From the IMG/VR virus record IMGVR_UViG_3300009370_000065, positions 1-40,327 of that record: a stretch of 40,327 nt of DNA; one strand, given 5' to 3'. Each line of letters begins with the position of its first letter. Positions within the stretch are counted from its first letter, which is position 1. Shown here in pieces: positions 1,043 through 12,877 of the stretch. The notes under the pieces were generated by a model, which saw nothing but the letters and a program-made list of their open reading frames with translations, had not been told where the DNA came from and made no database searches. The DNA is from a virus. The position numbers and the translations under genes were made by a program.

Positions 1043-1345
1043 GTGCCAGAGGCACGACGTTGTGGGCTTGTGGTCGATCCTGACGCGTCTGACGACACGT
1101 TACGCGCCGCTATCGCGTCGCTTACACGCGAAGCGCGTGAGGTACGACCTAGACAGCCGATTCGAACTACGCGGGAGATTCGCCTGGCTTCGAGAAGCAC
1201 AACGGACGGTGGACGGCCCCGTACCCCAGTTGTACCTGCTTCCGGCAGAGAAATGACCATTGCTCTTTGGAAACGAACGCCCCGACCCCACCCCTGTGTC
1301 TTTTTCTCAACACAGTGGAAGATTCCAGGGATGCAGAGGCTCTAG
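1043..1345 (+). CDS. weak candidate ORF inside the hairpin-rich region
   Basis: An open frame of 100 codons starts at GTG and has no good ribosome binding site. Part of the translation looks protein-like (DPDASDDTLRAAIASL near residues 12-27). The rest is Arg/Pro-rich, as expected from GC-rich noncoding DNA. It overlaps several perfect hairpins and the first hairpin of the structured region. I consider it more likely noncoding; it could also be a gene relic. Confidence 0.15.
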   Translation: MPEARRCGLVVDPDASDDTLRAAIASLTREAREVRPRQPIRTTREIRLASRSTTDGGRPRTPVVPASGREMTIALWKRTPRPHPCVFFSTQWKIPGMQRL

Positions 1346-1570
1346 CCCCCTCTTGGGTATCGAGGGGTTGCCACGACAGGGACCGAGGTTTCTCTCTCGG
1401 TGTGTCAGTTCACTGCGTCCAGCCAGTGATCTTGGGTACGCGACTTGGCAGATTGCTGGATCTGCTCTCCCGGGGTTTCGTACCTTCGGCTACCCCTGCA
1501 TCTATGGGAGGCCCCACGGTAGATGCGTTTCCCTCCCGGCCCCGCCGTCTATGACCGACAACCGGGAGGG
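1288..1570 (+). ncRNA. candidate large structured RNA: eight consecutive hairpins
   Basis: Nearly every base lies in a chain of hairpins: 1294-1315 (CTGTGT/ACACAG, extended by CCA/TGG), 1347-1367 (CCCCTC/GAGGGG), 1382-1401 (ACCGAG/CTCGGT), 1410-1429 (TCACTG/CAGTGA), 1448-1465 (GCAGAT/ATCTGC), 1472-1496 (GGGGT/ACCCC, with an inner C-TTCG-G), 1498-1526 (GCATCTA/TAGATGC plus TGGG/CCCA) and 1531-1570 (CCCTCCCGG/CCGGGAGGG). A C-UUCG-G tetraloop forms only on the + strand, which favours rightward transcription from upstream of 196. The last hairpin ends seven bases before the stop of the convergent gene at 1577 and may terminate one or both transcripts. Length and phage setting recall large phage-borne RNAs such as GOLLD or ROOL, but I recognise no family signature. 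Confidence 0.5.
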
Positions 1571-1576
1571 TACTGT

Positions 1577-1789
1577 CTAGTGTTTCGTGATGACTCGCAT
1601 CTCAGGGTAGAGGATCGCTGCGTTCCGTGCAGCGCACACAGGACATATCCGGTACAGAGTGTGTGTTATCCATTGCATGTGGTCACGGCCCCCCACCTTT
1701 ACAGAGCGATAGACGATGAAGACATCGTTACACTGGTGGCATCGGGTATCAATGGGAATCCGTGCCGCCTCGTAGTCTCGTGTGCTCAA
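1577..1789 (-). CDS. small zinc-ribbon protein downstream of the helicase
   Basis: This is a 70-residue protein with two CxxC knuckles (CHQC near residue 17, CPVC near residue 49) spaced about 30 residues apart, the usual layout of a zinc ribbon. It starts at TTG inside a TTGA junction with the stop of the helicase gene, with GGAGAG upstream, so it is probably translationally coupled to the helicase. It is the last gene of the leftward unit. Partner and target are unknown; a nucleic-acid-related role is inferred from neighbour and fold. Confidence 0.7.
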   Translation of the reverse strand: MSTRDYEAARIPIDTRCHQCNDVFIVYRSVKVGGRDHMQWITHTLYRICPVCAARNAAILYPEMRVITKH

Positions 1790-3204
1790 AACCGACTCTC
1801 CGGGTCACCCATGATCTCGGAGAGCTTGGAGTAGCTTCCACCGTTGCTGTACCCATCGGACTCCTCGCCGGGCTCCGGGCCTGTCCAGTCGGAGAACTTG
1901 GCATACCGGCTCTCGAACAGCATCGGCACAGTCCCCACGGGGCCGTTGCGCTGCTTGCCCACAATCAACTCAGCCCGGTCGGGAAACTCTGTCTCCCGGT
2001 GGTACACCACGTCGCGGTAAACAAAACCAATCAGGTCTGCGTCTTGCTCAATAGCCCCCGATTCCCGTAGATCCGAAAGCATCGGCCGCTTGTCGTTGGT
2101 ACCACGGGCCTCCGGCCCACGATTCAACTGACTCAGCGCCACCACAGGGCAATCCAACTCCTTTGCCAGAGCCTTGAGCCCACGGCTGATCTGACTGATC
2201 TCCTGCTCCCGATTCTTTGTGGTGCCGTCCCCCCGGGCCAACTGCAGGTAGTCCACAATCACCAGATCCAGAGGGGCCTGGGCGTGAAGCCGACGACACT
2301 TCGACCGGATCTCTAGGATGCTGGAGCTACCCGAGTCATCGATGAACAACGGAGCCGACTTCAGCTTGTCCGCTGCATCTGAAAGCCGACCGTGGGCGTC
2401 TACCGAAATCACACCCTTGTGGAACGTAGAGAAATCCACACTCGCCTCGGACGAGAGTAGCCGCATCACCAGGGAACGAGTGGTCATCTCCAATGAGAAC
2501 AACGCCACCCGCTTCTTGGAATCGAAGGCCGCATTGCGCGCCATGTTCAATGCCAGCGCCGTCTTCCCCATCGCGGGGCGGGCTGCGATAATCACCAGAT
2601 CCCCGTCCTGTAGCCCGCCCGTGAGGGCGTCGAACTCCCGTATCCCCGTGGTGAGGCCACTCAACTCACCGTTGCGATTCATCATCGCCTCGATGTGATC
2701 GAATGTGGGGGACATCGCAGACTCAAGAGAGGTGAAGTTGCTCAATGACCGGCGCTGCGATACCTCGAAGATCCGAGACTCCACACGATCGAGGAGAAGC
2801 CCGGAGTCGTCCGTTGCCTCGTAGGCATTCTCCGCGATCTCGCTCCCGATCCGAATGATCTCGCGCTTCAGCGATTTGTCGCGCACGATCTTCGAGTAGT
2901 GCTCTACATTCGCGGACGTGGCGGCGTAGTCCGATATCTCGGCCAGCGCAATCGTGCCACCCGCAGACTCAAGCTGCCCGTTTTCCTTCAACCAGTCCGC
3001 AATCACTACCAAGTCCAACGGCTTGTTGGCATTGTGTAGGGATGCCATAGCCGAATAGATCGTTTCGTGTGCGGGACTGTAGAAATCAGTGGGCTTGAGG
3101 TAGTCATACACGACATCAAAGGTCTTGTTGTCCAGCATGACGGCTGCGAGTACAGCCTTTTCGGAATCAAGATCGTAAGGCGGAATACGTCCGGTGGTGC
3201 TCAA
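1786..3204 (-). CDS. dnaB: replicative DNA helicase, DnaB family
   Basis: This is a hexameric 5'-3' replication-fork helicase of 472 residues, normal for DnaB. The N-terminal domain (about 8-110) contains the usual EKAVLAAVM-type segment. The RecA-like motor has Walker A ARPAMGKT near residues 208-215, Walker B LVIVDYLQL, and the C-terminal SQLNRG and DLRESGAIEQDAD motifs. I chose the TTG at 3204 because AAGGGAG lies six bases upstream and the codon overlaps the upstream stop as TTGA; a TTG at 3210 directly abuts the SD. No phage primase or polymerase is seen, so it presumably loads host polymerase. Lesions in the motor motifs are not apparent. Confidence 0.95.
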   Translation of the reverse strand: MSTTGRIPPYDLDSEKAVLAAVMLDNKTFDVVYDYLKPTDFYSPAHETIYSAMASLHNANKPLDLVVIADWLKENGQLESAGGTIALAEISDYAATSANVEHYSKIVRDKSLKREIIRIGSEIAENAYEATDDSGLLLDRVESRIFEVSQRRSLSNFTSLESAMSPTFDHIEAMMNRNGELSGLTTGIREFDALTGGLQDGDLVIIAARPAMGKTALALNMARNAAFDSKKRVALFSLEMTTRSLVMRLLSSEASVDFSTFHKGVISVDAHGRLSDAADKLKSAPLFIDDSGSSSILEIRSKCRRLHAQAPLDLVIVDYLQLARGDGTTKNREQEISQISRGLKALAKELDCPVVALSQLNRGPEARGTNDKRPMLSDLRESGAIEQDADLIGFVYRDVVYHRETEFPDRAELIVGKQRNGPVGTVPMLFESRYAKFSDWTGPEPGEESDGYSNGGSYSKLSEIMGDPESRF

Positions 3205-3425
3205 TGCCAACTCCCTTCGAACGCTGAGCGTTCGGCGTCTGTGAGTACAGGTAACCCAAGGCGGCGGCGCTCCTCAACCTGATGCCGGGGAACCGAATCG
3301 GGAATTTCCCGTGACCCCCCGGTCATTCGCTTCCCCGGCCCAGGCTTTGCACAACGGCACACCCGGAGATTCATAGTGAATCCCGTGGGGTGTTCTTCAG
3401 TGTTGCCGCAGATACATCGTGTCAT
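3201..3425 (-). CDS. small Cys-rich protein upstream of the helicase
   Basis: About 74 residues if the ATG at 3425 is used. The frame is open further upstream to about 3509, so the start is uncertain, and no clear ribosome binding site is seen at either start. The N-terminus carries paired cysteines (CIC, CRC) that could bind zinc; the C-terminus is Arg/Glu-rich. The stop overlaps the helicase TTG start (TTGA), so the two genes are coupled. A replication-accessory role is only a guess from position. Confidence 0.55.
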   Translation of the reverse strand: MTRCICGNTEEHPTGFTMNLRVCRCAKPGPGKRMTGGSREIPDSVPRHQVEERRRLGLPVLTDAERSAFEGSWH

Positions 3426-4194: not shown

Positions 4195-4242
4195 AATACT
4201 CTCCGTTGGTAATCAAGAAACTTGCGGCTATGGTATCACAAT

Positions 4243-4839
4243 ATGGATCAACAACACGATCCCGCAGTCCCGATCAAGCATGGTAAATGGGAGATCGTCG
4301 CTCAGCGTTTGGCGATGGGAGATACCCAGACCGATGCGTATCGGAAGGCGGGCTACAGCGCCACACAGCCATCCATCGATGCCGCTAAGTTATTGAAAAA
4401 GCACCCGGAAATTGCGGAGAGGGCCGAGTACCTCAAGAGCCGGATGTTTGATAGGCAAGTGGATACCAAGCTCATTACCCGAGATGAAGTTCTGCAAGGG
4501 TTGATGCATACGATCAAGCAAGCAATAGACCAGGGAAAGCCACAACTATCCGTCGTACACTCTTGCTACCGAACCATTGCCGAGATGGAAGGGATGCTCA
4601 TCAAGAAGTCTGAAGTAAAACGGATGAAGGAAGATCCGTTTGAGCACGCCTCTCGACAGCAACTTGTAAACATGATCGAGCGAGCAACGAGAGACTTAGG
4701 ACTGGAGATCGATGGACAACTCCTCGACCAATTCCTCGACAGCGGCGCTACGGATTCTGGCCTCCCGGCTGGAGTCGATGCGGACGAAGAAGCTGGCCTT
4801 CTATCGTCCGTATCCGAAACAGGCGGAATTCCACAGTAG
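4243..4839 (+). CDS. terS: terminase small subunit
   Basis: This DNA-recognition subunit of the packaging motor has 198 residues from the ATG at 4243. A TTG 21 bases upstream is an alternative, and neither start has a strong ribosome binding site. Residues about 20-65 show the helix-turn-helix layout of Terminase_2-type small subunits: a DTQTDAYRKAGY turn followed by a KLLKKHPEIAERAEYL helix. The C-terminal half is helical and acidic, as expected for oligomerisation and large-subunit contact. The 3' end overlaps the large subunit gene by 128 bases in another frame. It is the first gene of the rightward operon. Confidence 0.85.
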   Translation: MDQQHDPAVPIKHGKWEIVAQRLAMGDTQTDAYRKAGYSATQPSIDAAKLLKKHPEIAERAEYLKSRMFDRQVDTKLITRDEVLQGLMHTIKQAIDQGKPQLSVVHSCYRTIAEMEGMLIKKSEVKRMKEDPFEHASRQQLVNMIERATRDLGLEIDGQLLDQFLDSGATDSGLPAGVDADEEAGLLSSVSETGGIPQ

Positions 4840-6145
4840 CGGCAAGGAGTTCCGGCTTCGGCTGCTCATGGCCGGGAACCAGTTGGGGAAATCCGAGTGT
4901 GGCAGCGCCGAGATGGCAATGCACTTTACGGGTCTTTATCCACCCGCCTGGAATGGTATCCGGGTTGAGAAGCCGGGTCGGTACTGGGTAGGTGGAGTCA
5001 CCAGCCTCACCACGAGAGATGTAATCCAGAGGAAGCTACTCGGTCCCCCCGGGGAAGAGGGTACAGGTTGGATTCCGAAGGAATCGATTGAGAAGCTGGT
5101 GCCGTCGCGAGGAGTTCCTGGTGCTTACGACTACGCCATGATCCGACACCAGAAGGGCGGCAGTAGTTTCGTGGGGTTCAAGTCCTACGAACAGGGCCGG
5201 GAGAAGTGGCAGGCGGATACCCTCGATGCCATCTGGTTCGACGAGGAGCCCCCGGCAGATATCTGGACGGAGGGGCTTGCCCGTTGTACTGCCACGGGTG
5301 GATTCACGCTCCTGACGTTTACGCCACTAAAGGGCATGTCAGATGTGGTCAGAGGGTTTTACCCCACGCCCGATTCGGCTGAGAAGAAAGTCATTCGGAT
5401 GGGGATCAAGGATGCACAGCACATCTCGGAGGAGATGCGCGAGAAGATCCTGACCCAGTACCCCGAGCACGAGAGGGACGCACGCCTAGAGGGCATCCCC
5501 AAGCTGGGATCGGGGATGATCTACAACGTCCCCGAGAGCATGATTGTCGAGGCACCAATCGAAATTCCCTATTGGTGGCGCAGAATTATAGGCATTGACC
5601 TTGGCGGCGGGGATCACCCCACAGCCGCAGTTGCCATGGCCCATGATACAGAGACAGACGAGATCCACGTATACGCCTGTTACAAGGGGAAGGACCCCCG
5701 TATTGCAATACACGCATCGGCAATCAAGACATGGGGGCAACTACCTGTTGCATGGCCGAAGGATGCGTACACGAGGGACCGCAACAGCGGCACCAGATTT
5801 GCAGATCTCTACCGGGAGGAAGGCATTCGGATGCTCCATGAGCATACCCAGTTCATCGATGGAACCGTATCGGTGGAGCCCGGAATCGCGGAAATCCTGA
5901 ACCGAATGGTCCGAGGGAAGTTCAAGGTTGCTTACCAGTTGTCTGACTGGTGGGATGAGTTCAAGCTGTACCACCGGAGCAACGGGGCAATCGTCAAGAA
6001 GTACGATGACCTCATGGATGCCACCCGGTATGCCATGATGAGTTTGCGTTATGCAACGATAATCCGGCAGAGGAATCGATTTCCCGCTACAGTAGGTGTG
6101 GATTACGACCCGTTGGCTGCGTCCGATGAGGCGAAGTTGCACTGA
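4712..6145 (+). CDS. terL: terminase large subunit (packaging ATPase/nuclease)
   Basis: This protein pumps DNA into the prohead and cuts it. It has 477 residues, normal for the family. The Walker A motif is GNQLGKS (55-61). The Walker B and catalytic acid lie in IWFDEEPP (D177, E178). A coupling-motif segment LLTFTPLKG follows. The RNase H-like nuclease begins with GIDLGGGDHP and ends with a late acidic site in DLMDATRYAMM. The start at 4712 has GGAG four bases upstream but gives a long overlap with the small subunit; ATG at 4778 is an alternative. The stop overlaps the next ATG (TGATG). The deviant GNQLGKS Walker A is common in podoviral terminases. Confidence 0.95.
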   Translation: MDNSSTNSSTAALRILASRLESMRTKKLAFYRPYPKQAEFHSSGKEFRLRLLMAGNQLGKSECGSAEMAMHFTGLYPPAWNGIRVEKPGRYWVGGVTSLTTRDVIQRKLLGPPGEEGTGWIPKESIEKLVPSRGVPGAYDYAMIRHQKGGSSFVGFKSYEQGREKWQADTLDAIWFDEEPPADIWTEGLARCTATGGFTLLTFTPLKGMSDVVRGFYPTPDSAEKKVIRMGIKDAQHISEEMREKILTQYPEHERDARLEGIPKLGSGMIYNVPESMIVEAPIEIPYWWRRIIGIDLGGGDHPTAAVAMAHDTETDEIHVYACYKGKDPRIAIHASAIKTWGQLPVAWPKDAYTRDRNSGTRFADLYREEGIRMLHEHTQFIDGTVSVEPGIAEILNRMVRGKFKVAYQLSDWWDEFKLYHRSNGAIVKKYDDLMDATRYAMMSLRYATIIRQRNRFPATVGVDYDPLAASDEAKLH

Positions 6146-11448: not shown

Positions 11449-11988
11449 ATGGCAACGTATTATTCTAATCTCATTCAGCCGGATCAGACTACTCCGACTT
11501 CCGTGCCCACGATTCGGGCCATTACGAGTGCTGGTCAGCATCGCGGACGACTTCGTTACTCACGAGCGGAAATCAACTTCGCGGCGGCTACCGACCTTGC
11601 TAATGACGAAGTTATCCGATGGGTGACTCTGAAGTCATCTGACCGGATTATCGAGTTGCACGCATCATCCGATGCCGATTGGGGCGCAACCGCAACTTTC
11701 AACATTGGCTTGTATTTGACGGGATCAAACCACGATGGGGCAGTAATAGACGAAGATCTGTTTGCTTCGGCTGTCGATTTCCAGAATGCAGTTGCTCGGA
11801 CTGACGTATTCAAAGAGGCCACGACCCTCACGGATATGGACCGAGGAAAGCCGATTTGGCAACTGCTTGGAGAAAGCGCCGATACGGCAACTTCTTATGA
11901 TTTGGTTTGGCAGGCAACGGCAGACATTTCGGCGACTGCCGGTGCTACCAACTCGGTCATGGAAGTCTATTACGTTTCTGGCGACTGA
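11449..11988 (+). CDS. capsid-adjacent structural protein (head accessory candidate)
   Basis: The protein has 179 residues, with GAAAGG upstream. It is rich in Thr, Ala, Asp and short beta-strand patterns (RLRYSRAEINF, TFNIGLYLTGS, YDLVWQATADI), with few Lys and no Cys, like a beta-sandwich decoration or head-fibre protein. It sits between capsid and tail tubular genes and has hairpins on both flanks, like the capsid gene, suggesting co-regulated high expression. No family is recognised. Confidence 0.7.
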   Translation: MATYYSNLIQPDQTTPTSVPTIRAITSAGQHRGRLRYSRAEINFAAATDLANDEVIRWVTLKSSDRIIELHASSDADWGATATFNIGLYLTGSNHDGAVIDEDLFASAVDFQNAVARTDVFKEATTLTDMDRGKPIWQLLGESADTATSYDLVWQATADISATAGATNSVMEVYYVSGD

Positions 11989-11996
11989 TTGACTAG

Positions 11997-12025
11997 CCGG
12001 GGGGGGGGCGTAAGCTCCCCCTCGG
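11997..12025 (+). terminator. G-tract hairpin between head and tail genes
   Basis: A run of ten G followed by C-GTAA-G and a C-rich arm forms GGGGGGC-GTAA-GCTCCCC with flanking CCG / CGG, i.e. a GNRA-loop hairpin. It lies between the stop at 11988 and the ATG at 12038. It may attenuate or protect the mRNA 3' end. The homopolymer is also a likely site of sequencing error in length. Confidence 0.45.
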
Positions 12026-12037
12026 TGTAGGTGTTAC

Positions 12038-12877
12038 ATGGCGTTTACCCATGAGCGGGACATCATCAATGCCGCGTTGTCTGGTCTTGGTGTCAACCCG
12101 GTAAACGCTGCATACGAGTTGGCTGTACCTGCCGAAACGACAGAGCAGGCAAAGCTGGCCTCTGCCACGTACTCGATGCACCTAGAGCATCTGTTGGCAT
12201 CGCACCCCTGGAACTTTGCACTCAATCATGCTGTGTCAGACATGGCACTTTTACCCACAGGGACATGGCGTTGGGATTATGCCTACTCGCTTCCTAGCGA
12301 CTCACTTCGAGTTTGGGAGGTTGAGAAGCAGAGTGCAAACATCGAAGACGAGTGGACCGTATCGGATGGCCTGCTGCTGACAAATTTGGAACAGACAACT
12401 TCCGCCACCGTTACAGCAATCGATGCAGGGACCGATACATGCACCAGTAACAATCACGGCTTTTCTGCCGGTGATGTAGTGATTGTGAACAACATACCGG
12501 GTCTGACAGACGATACTGTTTTGTATTACGTCATGGCCGCCGGGCTTACTGATAATGATTTTCGGCTATCAACGAGTGCCGTGGGTGCGGCAGAAAACCT
12601 CTCGGTGTTTGTTAGCAACGGAACAGTAACTCGGCGGACAGTAGATATCCGGTATGTCAAGGACGAAACAGCGGTTACAGCTTATAGTCCTCAGTTCATC
12701 ACTGCCCTGGTAGCGAAGCTGGAGTCCGAATGGGCAGAACCCTTGGTCAAGGCAACGACGCTTGGTGAACGGAAAGATCTGAAGTTCATGGACAAGTTGG
12801 CAGAATCTCGCAGCCTAGACGGCCAAGAGGGAACACCAGAACGGCAAGAAGTTCTTACGTGGCTCGATGAGAGGTAA
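12038..12877 (+). CDS. tail tubular protein A-like (head-tail adaptor)
   Basis: This ring below the portal joins head to tail. It has 279 residues. The N-terminus (INAALSGLGVNPVN, and ATYSMHLEHLLASHPWNFAL) is the gp11-type adaptor signature. The C-terminus (ALVAKLESEWAEPLVKATT, followed by a KDLKFMDKLAESRSLDGQEG helix) completes it. Residues about 125-190 are an inserted beta domain with SNNHGFSAGDVVIV, a type common in phage tail proteins and seen again in the next gene. The start has GTAGG upstream. Confidence 0.88.
   Translation: MAFTHERDIINAALSGLGVNPVNAAYELAVPAETTEQAKLASATYSMHLEHLLASHPWNFALNHAVSDMALLPTGTWRWDYAYSLPSDSLRVWEVEKQSANIEDEWTVSDGLLLTNLEQTTSATVTAIDAGTDTCTSNNHGFSAGDVVIVNNIPGLTDDTVLYYVMAAGLTDNDFRLSTSAVGAAENLSVFVSNGTVTRRTVDIRYVKDETAVTAYSPQFITALVAKLESEWAEPLVKATTLGERKDLKFMDKLAESRSLDGQEGTPERQEVLTWLDER

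Follow-up and report, generated by a model that had tools for sequence, protein, structure and literature searches.

What kind of element is formed by the dense series of hairpins at 1288-1570 of a 40.3-kb contig from a tailed phage (called the window here, by which we mean the whole stretch of DNA analysed), and on which strand does it lie? This region holds five perfect stems that do not overlap, each 6 bp or longer and with a loop of 3-10 nt (1294-1315, 1347-1367, 1382-1401, 1410-1429, and 1448-1465). Dinucleotide shuffles give 0.53 on average (sd 0.69), and in 1000 of them the count of five was never reached. Longer stems are also present, at 1570-1531 and 1526-1498 (P1 and P2 below). The hairpin cluster, first noticed in a sequence-only reading, is thus borne out. 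That reading had interpreted it as a structured RNA transcribed from the plus strand in a gene-free region, possibly GOLLD- or ROOL-like or a new class, and possibly extending over 604-1570.

A search of the whole window against Rfam at the gathering threshold gave no matches, and the Rfam covariance models of GOLLD, ROOL, HEARO, and OLE did not match. When the search was relaxed (positions 1-1800, E up to 5), the minus strand at 1569-1443 matched RF02932 with 37.1 bits (E 6.3e-5), and this match spans the entire model (positions 1-120). RF02932 is the Betaproteobacteria-1 RNA, which Rfam lists as type "Gene; sRNA" with a gathering score of 49.4 bits; the window copy stays below this membership score, while four representative loci of the family reach 83-105 bits. 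The class is said to have been described in a 2017 paper. In the open-access papers searched, neither the family name nor the accession was found.

To obtain family members, IMG/VR contigs were scanned for the motif CTGTGGGN{14,34}GGGTGGCGAAG, which occurs in at least 120 stretches; among the matches listed, a simple filter on motifs retained at least 87 viral and at least 18 genome loci. A covariance model (model R1) was built from 51 aligned family sequences, with the window sequence left out. It matches the minus strand of the window at 1570-1456 with 37.7 bits and an E-value of 4.5e-9, which is to be taken as rough, background matches in other records topping out at 9-15 bits. In the 125 kb searched there is no other match up to an E-value of 5, and this one occurs on the minus strand only.

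The window copy has the consensus hairpins P1 and then P2 with a GUGGG loop, and also the P3/P4 double pseudoknot and the P2-loop pseudoknot, which covary in the family. In two of the core motifs it departs from the family, with CCGUGGG in place of CUGUGGG and UAGCCGAAG in place of UGGCGAAG. Where the family has the 11-mer core motif GGGUGGCGAAG, which our search pattern included and which is therefore fixed in our own set of sequences, the window has GGGGUAGCCGAAG. As the copy lies below the Rfam cut-off and has altered core motifs, we do not file it as a member of RF02932. Judged from its sequence and predicted fold, the window RNA is a homologous, divergent variant of the Betaproteobacteria-1 RNA, and the idea of a new class was given up.

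The predicted fold is described here in the direction of the minus strand. It begins with the P1 hairpin CCCTCCCGGTTGTCGGTCATAGACGGCGGGGCCGGGAGGG (1531-1570), which aligns to RF02932 and to model R1 and contains the inner family helix GUCGG...ACGGC. The P2 hairpin (1498-1526) is formed by GCATCTA (1526-1520) and TAGATGC (1504-1498) and has the loop CCGTGGGGCCTCCCA, at the place of the family loop motif CUGUGGG. Within this loop, CTCCC (1506-1510) would pair with GGGAG (1467-1471) as the pseudoknot PK, and the equivalent pairing covaries in the family. P3 would be formed by GGGG (1493-1496), which is followed by TAGCCGAAG, a variant of the family motif TGGCGAAG, and by CCCC (1472-1475). P4 consists of GGTACG (1479-1484) and CGTACC (1435-1440), and its counterpart helix also covaries in the family. 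P3, P4, and PK in the order and spacing of the window occurred in only 7 of 20000 dinucleotide shuffles. Such pseudoknots had no place in the sequence-only description of the cluster.

An inserted hairpin, GCAGATCCAGCAATCTGC (1448-1465), separates PK from the 3′ side of P4 in the window; none of the aligned members has it. In this hairpin, TCCAGC (1460-1455) is the complement of GCTGGA (1423-1418) in the loop of the P5 hairpin TCACTGGCTGGACGCAGTGA (1410-1429), so that a 6-bp kissing loop between the two is possible. The chance of a 6-bp loop match is about 0.0016, to be read with the reservation that this match was spotted post hoc and lacks a homologue. We read the P5 hairpin as the positional counterpart of the family P5/R1 hairpin and the P6 hairpin GACACACCGAG...CTCGGTCCCTGTC (1375-1406) as that of the family P6. 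Two further minus-strand hairpins (1347-1369 and 1294-1315, within 1294-1369) are candidate parts of the RNA, and no counterpart of them was found in the family. The RNA probably extends in the 3′ direction to about 1375.

Because near homologues of the window version were not found in three tailored viral scans, which returned chance matches only, the covariation evidence comes from the family and not from the window's own stems or its insert. No close relatives of the window were found by way of DnaB. Through the large terminase subunit (TerL), two near-identical contigs were found that both end short of the RNA, and phages with about 42% TerL identity gave no RNA match better than 9 bits.

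Covariation was counted on the alignment of 51 sequences, with a structure composed of P1, P2, P4, and the two pseudoknot helices. In the family, the P2 loop pairs with a stretch 3′ of P3 (PK), and P3 together with P4 makes up an H-type pseudoknot. Paired bases occupy 92.2% of the cells, compared to 34-43% when the partner column is slid. Compensatory changes, with both sides changed, are found in 372 cells; shuffles have 113 such cells, and a covariation score of 0.168 where the family alignment reaches 0.558. Stem changes in homologous phage contigs, which would speak against a structured RNA if they went uncompensated, are thus in favour of structure, and the proposal of a structured phage RNA gains support from covarying stems. 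A divergent sub-clade on Burkholderiales chromosomes (L225, L228, L230) is present in multiple copies and has the loop CCACGGGG; by eye, it apparently keeps P3 with other bases (CGG/CCG or CGC/GCG). A pattern for this Burkholderia sub-clade retrieved nothing among viral contigs.

Several observations favour the minus strand. Apart from the two covariance models, which match the minus strand only, the minus strand also folds better (z of the minimum free energy -4.1, versus -1.9 for the plus strand). The many U-G pairs on the minus-type strand of the family (columns 18/36, 16/40, and 99/137) favour an RNA of that orientation. Plus-strand transcription had been linked to a C-UUCG-G loop at about 1483-1490, which is the complement of the conserved minus-strand motif CCGAAG and therefore no indicator of strand. 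A plus-strand RNA over 604-1570, perhaps akin to GOLLD or ROOL, is the reading to which we give least credence: the stem enrichment would suit it, as would the palindromes of 604-1287, but the minus-only matches, the better minus-strand fold, and the lack of any match to GOLLD, ROOL, OLE, or HEARO all speak against it. The proposed extension found no backing either, as no homology was detected over 604-1290. The stretch 604-1287 is GC-rich and palindrome-rich, with 6 perfect stems (6 bp or longer) where 1.7 are expected; it folds just modestly better than shuffles and is without match to known RNAs.

The RNA is located just downstream of a gene for a DnaB-type replicative helicase on the same strand (1786-3210, minus; phrog_19, 4.7e-119; PF03796, 2e-100). 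Between the two lies a 70-aa candidate ORF with a CxxC/CxxC pattern (1577-1789, minus), the TTG start of which overlaps the dnaB stop; it has no significant Pfam match (best E 0.026). The region can be called gene-free only in part, since this candidate ORF ends 7 nt before P1. The terminase subunits are encoded on the plus strand (4222-6145), with capsid genes further on. Neither a promoter nor a terminator was found adjoining the window RNA, and there is no convincing minus-strand gene downstream of it.

About 87 viral contigs carry the family, a lower bound among the matches listed. One clear copy is present in 21 of 22 phage records, while the remaining record is without match; a second match occurs in one phage record (15 bits). 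The RNAs are usually intergenic and their neighbours change: 32 upstream and 39 downstream families were encountered at 61 phage loci. The downstream gene is on the same strand at 47 of these loci and on the opposite strand at 14, so that the fixed same-strand downstream gene expected of a cis-acting leader is not seen. In one contig (L063), the RNA lies between scaffold-like and capsid-like genes, as called by eye. Acidovorax phage AP1 (OM049504.1), a cultivable phage isolated on Paracidovorax oryzae, has an unannotated Betaproteobacteria-1 RNA at 11848-12085, where it follows the primase gene and precedes the next ORF. Its layout resembles that of the window, with the RNA directly after helicase and primase genes in AP1 and after dnaB in the window.

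In bacteria the family is rare (among 200 Burkholderiales genomes, 3 have it at E 1e-5, the centre genome included), and plasmids gave no match. Some Paraburkholderia and Caballeronia genomes have 1-5 copies, several of which are partial. The partial copies at three loci on Burkholderiales chromosomes (L227, L229, L231) all start at one point of the P2 loop (GGGA|TAGCCTTGAG), which would be expected if genomic islands integrate in the RNA gene. In L229 there seems to be, in addition, an R1-R2 deletion (these repeats are described below).

Typical members carry two related segments beyond the core, R1 (CUCCG-XXXX-GCA) in P5 and R2 (CACCA-XXXX-GCA) after P6. The variable XXXX is identical between R1 and R2 in 52 of 76 loci and differs between phage lineages. 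The R1 segment may bear some resemblance to a stretch of RNase P RNA, and the core to the T-box motif. When R1 and R2 were tried as antisense seeds against the start regions of phage genes, no consistent signal emerged, and pairing of R1 and R2 within the RNA was no better than in the control (24 of 71 versus 21 of 71). In the window copy, the R1 segment is degraded and R2 is not recognised.

In many phage members, the core is preceded by a 5′ domain, here termed D0, of which the literature searched gives no description. The order is a sigma-70-like promoter, a GUUG...CAAC hairpin, a terminator-like hairpin, a T-run, and then the core. The promoter-like sequence lies 5-8 nt before the first hairpin, and the T-run 15-25 nt before P1. 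Examples are L012 (7466-7560), L033 (6883-6975, minus), L040 (4091-4188), and L063 (4024-4133, minus). In 42 members, with 27 distinct sequences among them, a run of at least 7 bases in the first hairpin's loop (A) has its complement in the 3′ bulge of the second hairpin (A'). The mean match is 7.9 bases for own pairs and 2.6 bases for crosses between different phages, the former being biased upward as a long match was required for selection; the argument therefore rests on the sequence diversity and the cross control. In L008, L081, L109, L112, and L120 the pairing is possibly misassigned, the longest match being maybe the terminator stem or another pairing. The D0 domain of L014 has no Rfam match, and there is no sign of D0 in the window.

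We consider it likely, with a probability of roughly 0.6, that the minus strand of the window at 1570-1435 specifies a divergent relative of the Betaproteobacteria-1 RNA, noncoding, compact, and doubly pseudoknotted, which acts in trans and is made early together with dnaB. The RNA would sit at the distal end of the dnaB transcript and would be made early in infection along with the replication genes. In the window it may be cotranscribed with dnaB and then cut out, while many relatives would make it from their own promoter. Tight folding may let the RNA survive. It could then act in a regulatory or scaffolding role via the exposed C-rich R1 and R2, which flank the last hairpin in typical members. 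Action in trans as a structured RNA is the mode that we favour and the best supported one, because the RNAs are standalone, have no fixed neighbour or orientation, are single per genome, and often have their own promoter.

For promoter-bearing members, the main rival is a cis-acting leader between promoter and operon, which would exert attenuation or put-like processive antitermination on whatever genes follow. The order in many phage members, where promoter and 5′ hairpin are followed by the terminator-like hairpin with its T-run, the core, and a same-strand gene, would suit a leader, as would the same-strand majority of downstream genes and the complementarity between the first loop and the bulge of the terminator-like hairpin. 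Nevertheless, we regard it as unlikely. The downstream gene is on the opposite strand not only at the 14 phage loci but also beside some of the chromosomal copies in Burkholderiales, and the window lacks a convincing gene to be led. In addition, the terminator-like hairpin precedes the core, so that the core could not rescue that termination.

It is improbable that the element matters as DNA, as an integration or recombination site or as a dispersed repeat. The up to five copies in Burkholderiales chromosomes, the common P2-loop start of the three partial copies, and the apparent R1-R2 deletion point in this direction; yet phage genomes have a single clear copy each, and the compensatory changes with many G-U pairs require a folded RNA. 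Genes for tRNA and tmRNA also serve as integration sites, which is not their function. We hold it to be very improbable that the window merely contains unrelated hairpins, such as decayed terminators or repeats, with a chance resemblance to the family. The score below the Rfam cut-off, the GC-rich sequence, and the altered motifs would be compatible with this, but the independently built model finds the locus with an E-value of 4.5e-9, and all three pseudoknot-type helices occur in the right order.

A wider proposal, which we put forward tentatively and with more doubt than confidence, is that the Betaproteobacteria-1 RNA is the core of a widespread, ornate phage RNA of about 400 nt, with a promoter-led D0, a hypervariable loop-bulge pairing within or between molecules, and C-rich end modules. 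The window would then represent a divergent version, the insert of which may kiss the P5 loop. Since the D0 pairing keeps its complementarity while its sequence diverges from phage to phage, it could determine self-recognition; if so, this might serve the assembly of homo-oligomers, as in GOLLD and ROOL, or a self-specific attenuation. An orphan RNA class has proved to be common in phages, with a core that forms pseudoknots and an extent beyond that of its catalogue entry; often it carries a fast-changing yet always complementary loop pairing. The window extends the class to a distant relative that has one more hairpin. As far as the open-access literature searched is concerned, this expanded view of a phage-borne, pseudoknotted family with a 5′ kissing domain is without description. 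The function is directly testable, as the isolate AP1 carries the RNA.

Among known phage RNAs, the P4 CI and P1 C4 immunity RNAs are units in which terminators occur together with short, repeated segments of complementary sequence; the window has no match to C4 in Rfam, and no complementary partner of R1/R2 was found. With GOLLD and ROOL, the family shares being large, pseudoknotted, phage-borne, and of unknown function, but there is no match in sequence or structure, and the core of the family measures about 130 nt. From Betaproteobacteria-1 proper, the window RNA differs by its score below gathering, the CCGUGGG and UAGCCGAAG variants, the extra hairpin that follows PK and precedes the 3′ side of P4, the unrecognised R2, and the lack of a close sequence relative in the scans, while P1 with GUCGG...ACGGC, the GUGGG loop of P2, the GAAG core motif, and the downstream P4 are common to both. 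Typical phage members (L012, L033, AP1) are, like the window copy, intergenic and single; unlike it, many have their own promoter and 5′ domain with the covarying loop-bulge pairing. AP1 and its kin share with the window the position of the RNA directly after genes for replicative helicase or primase.
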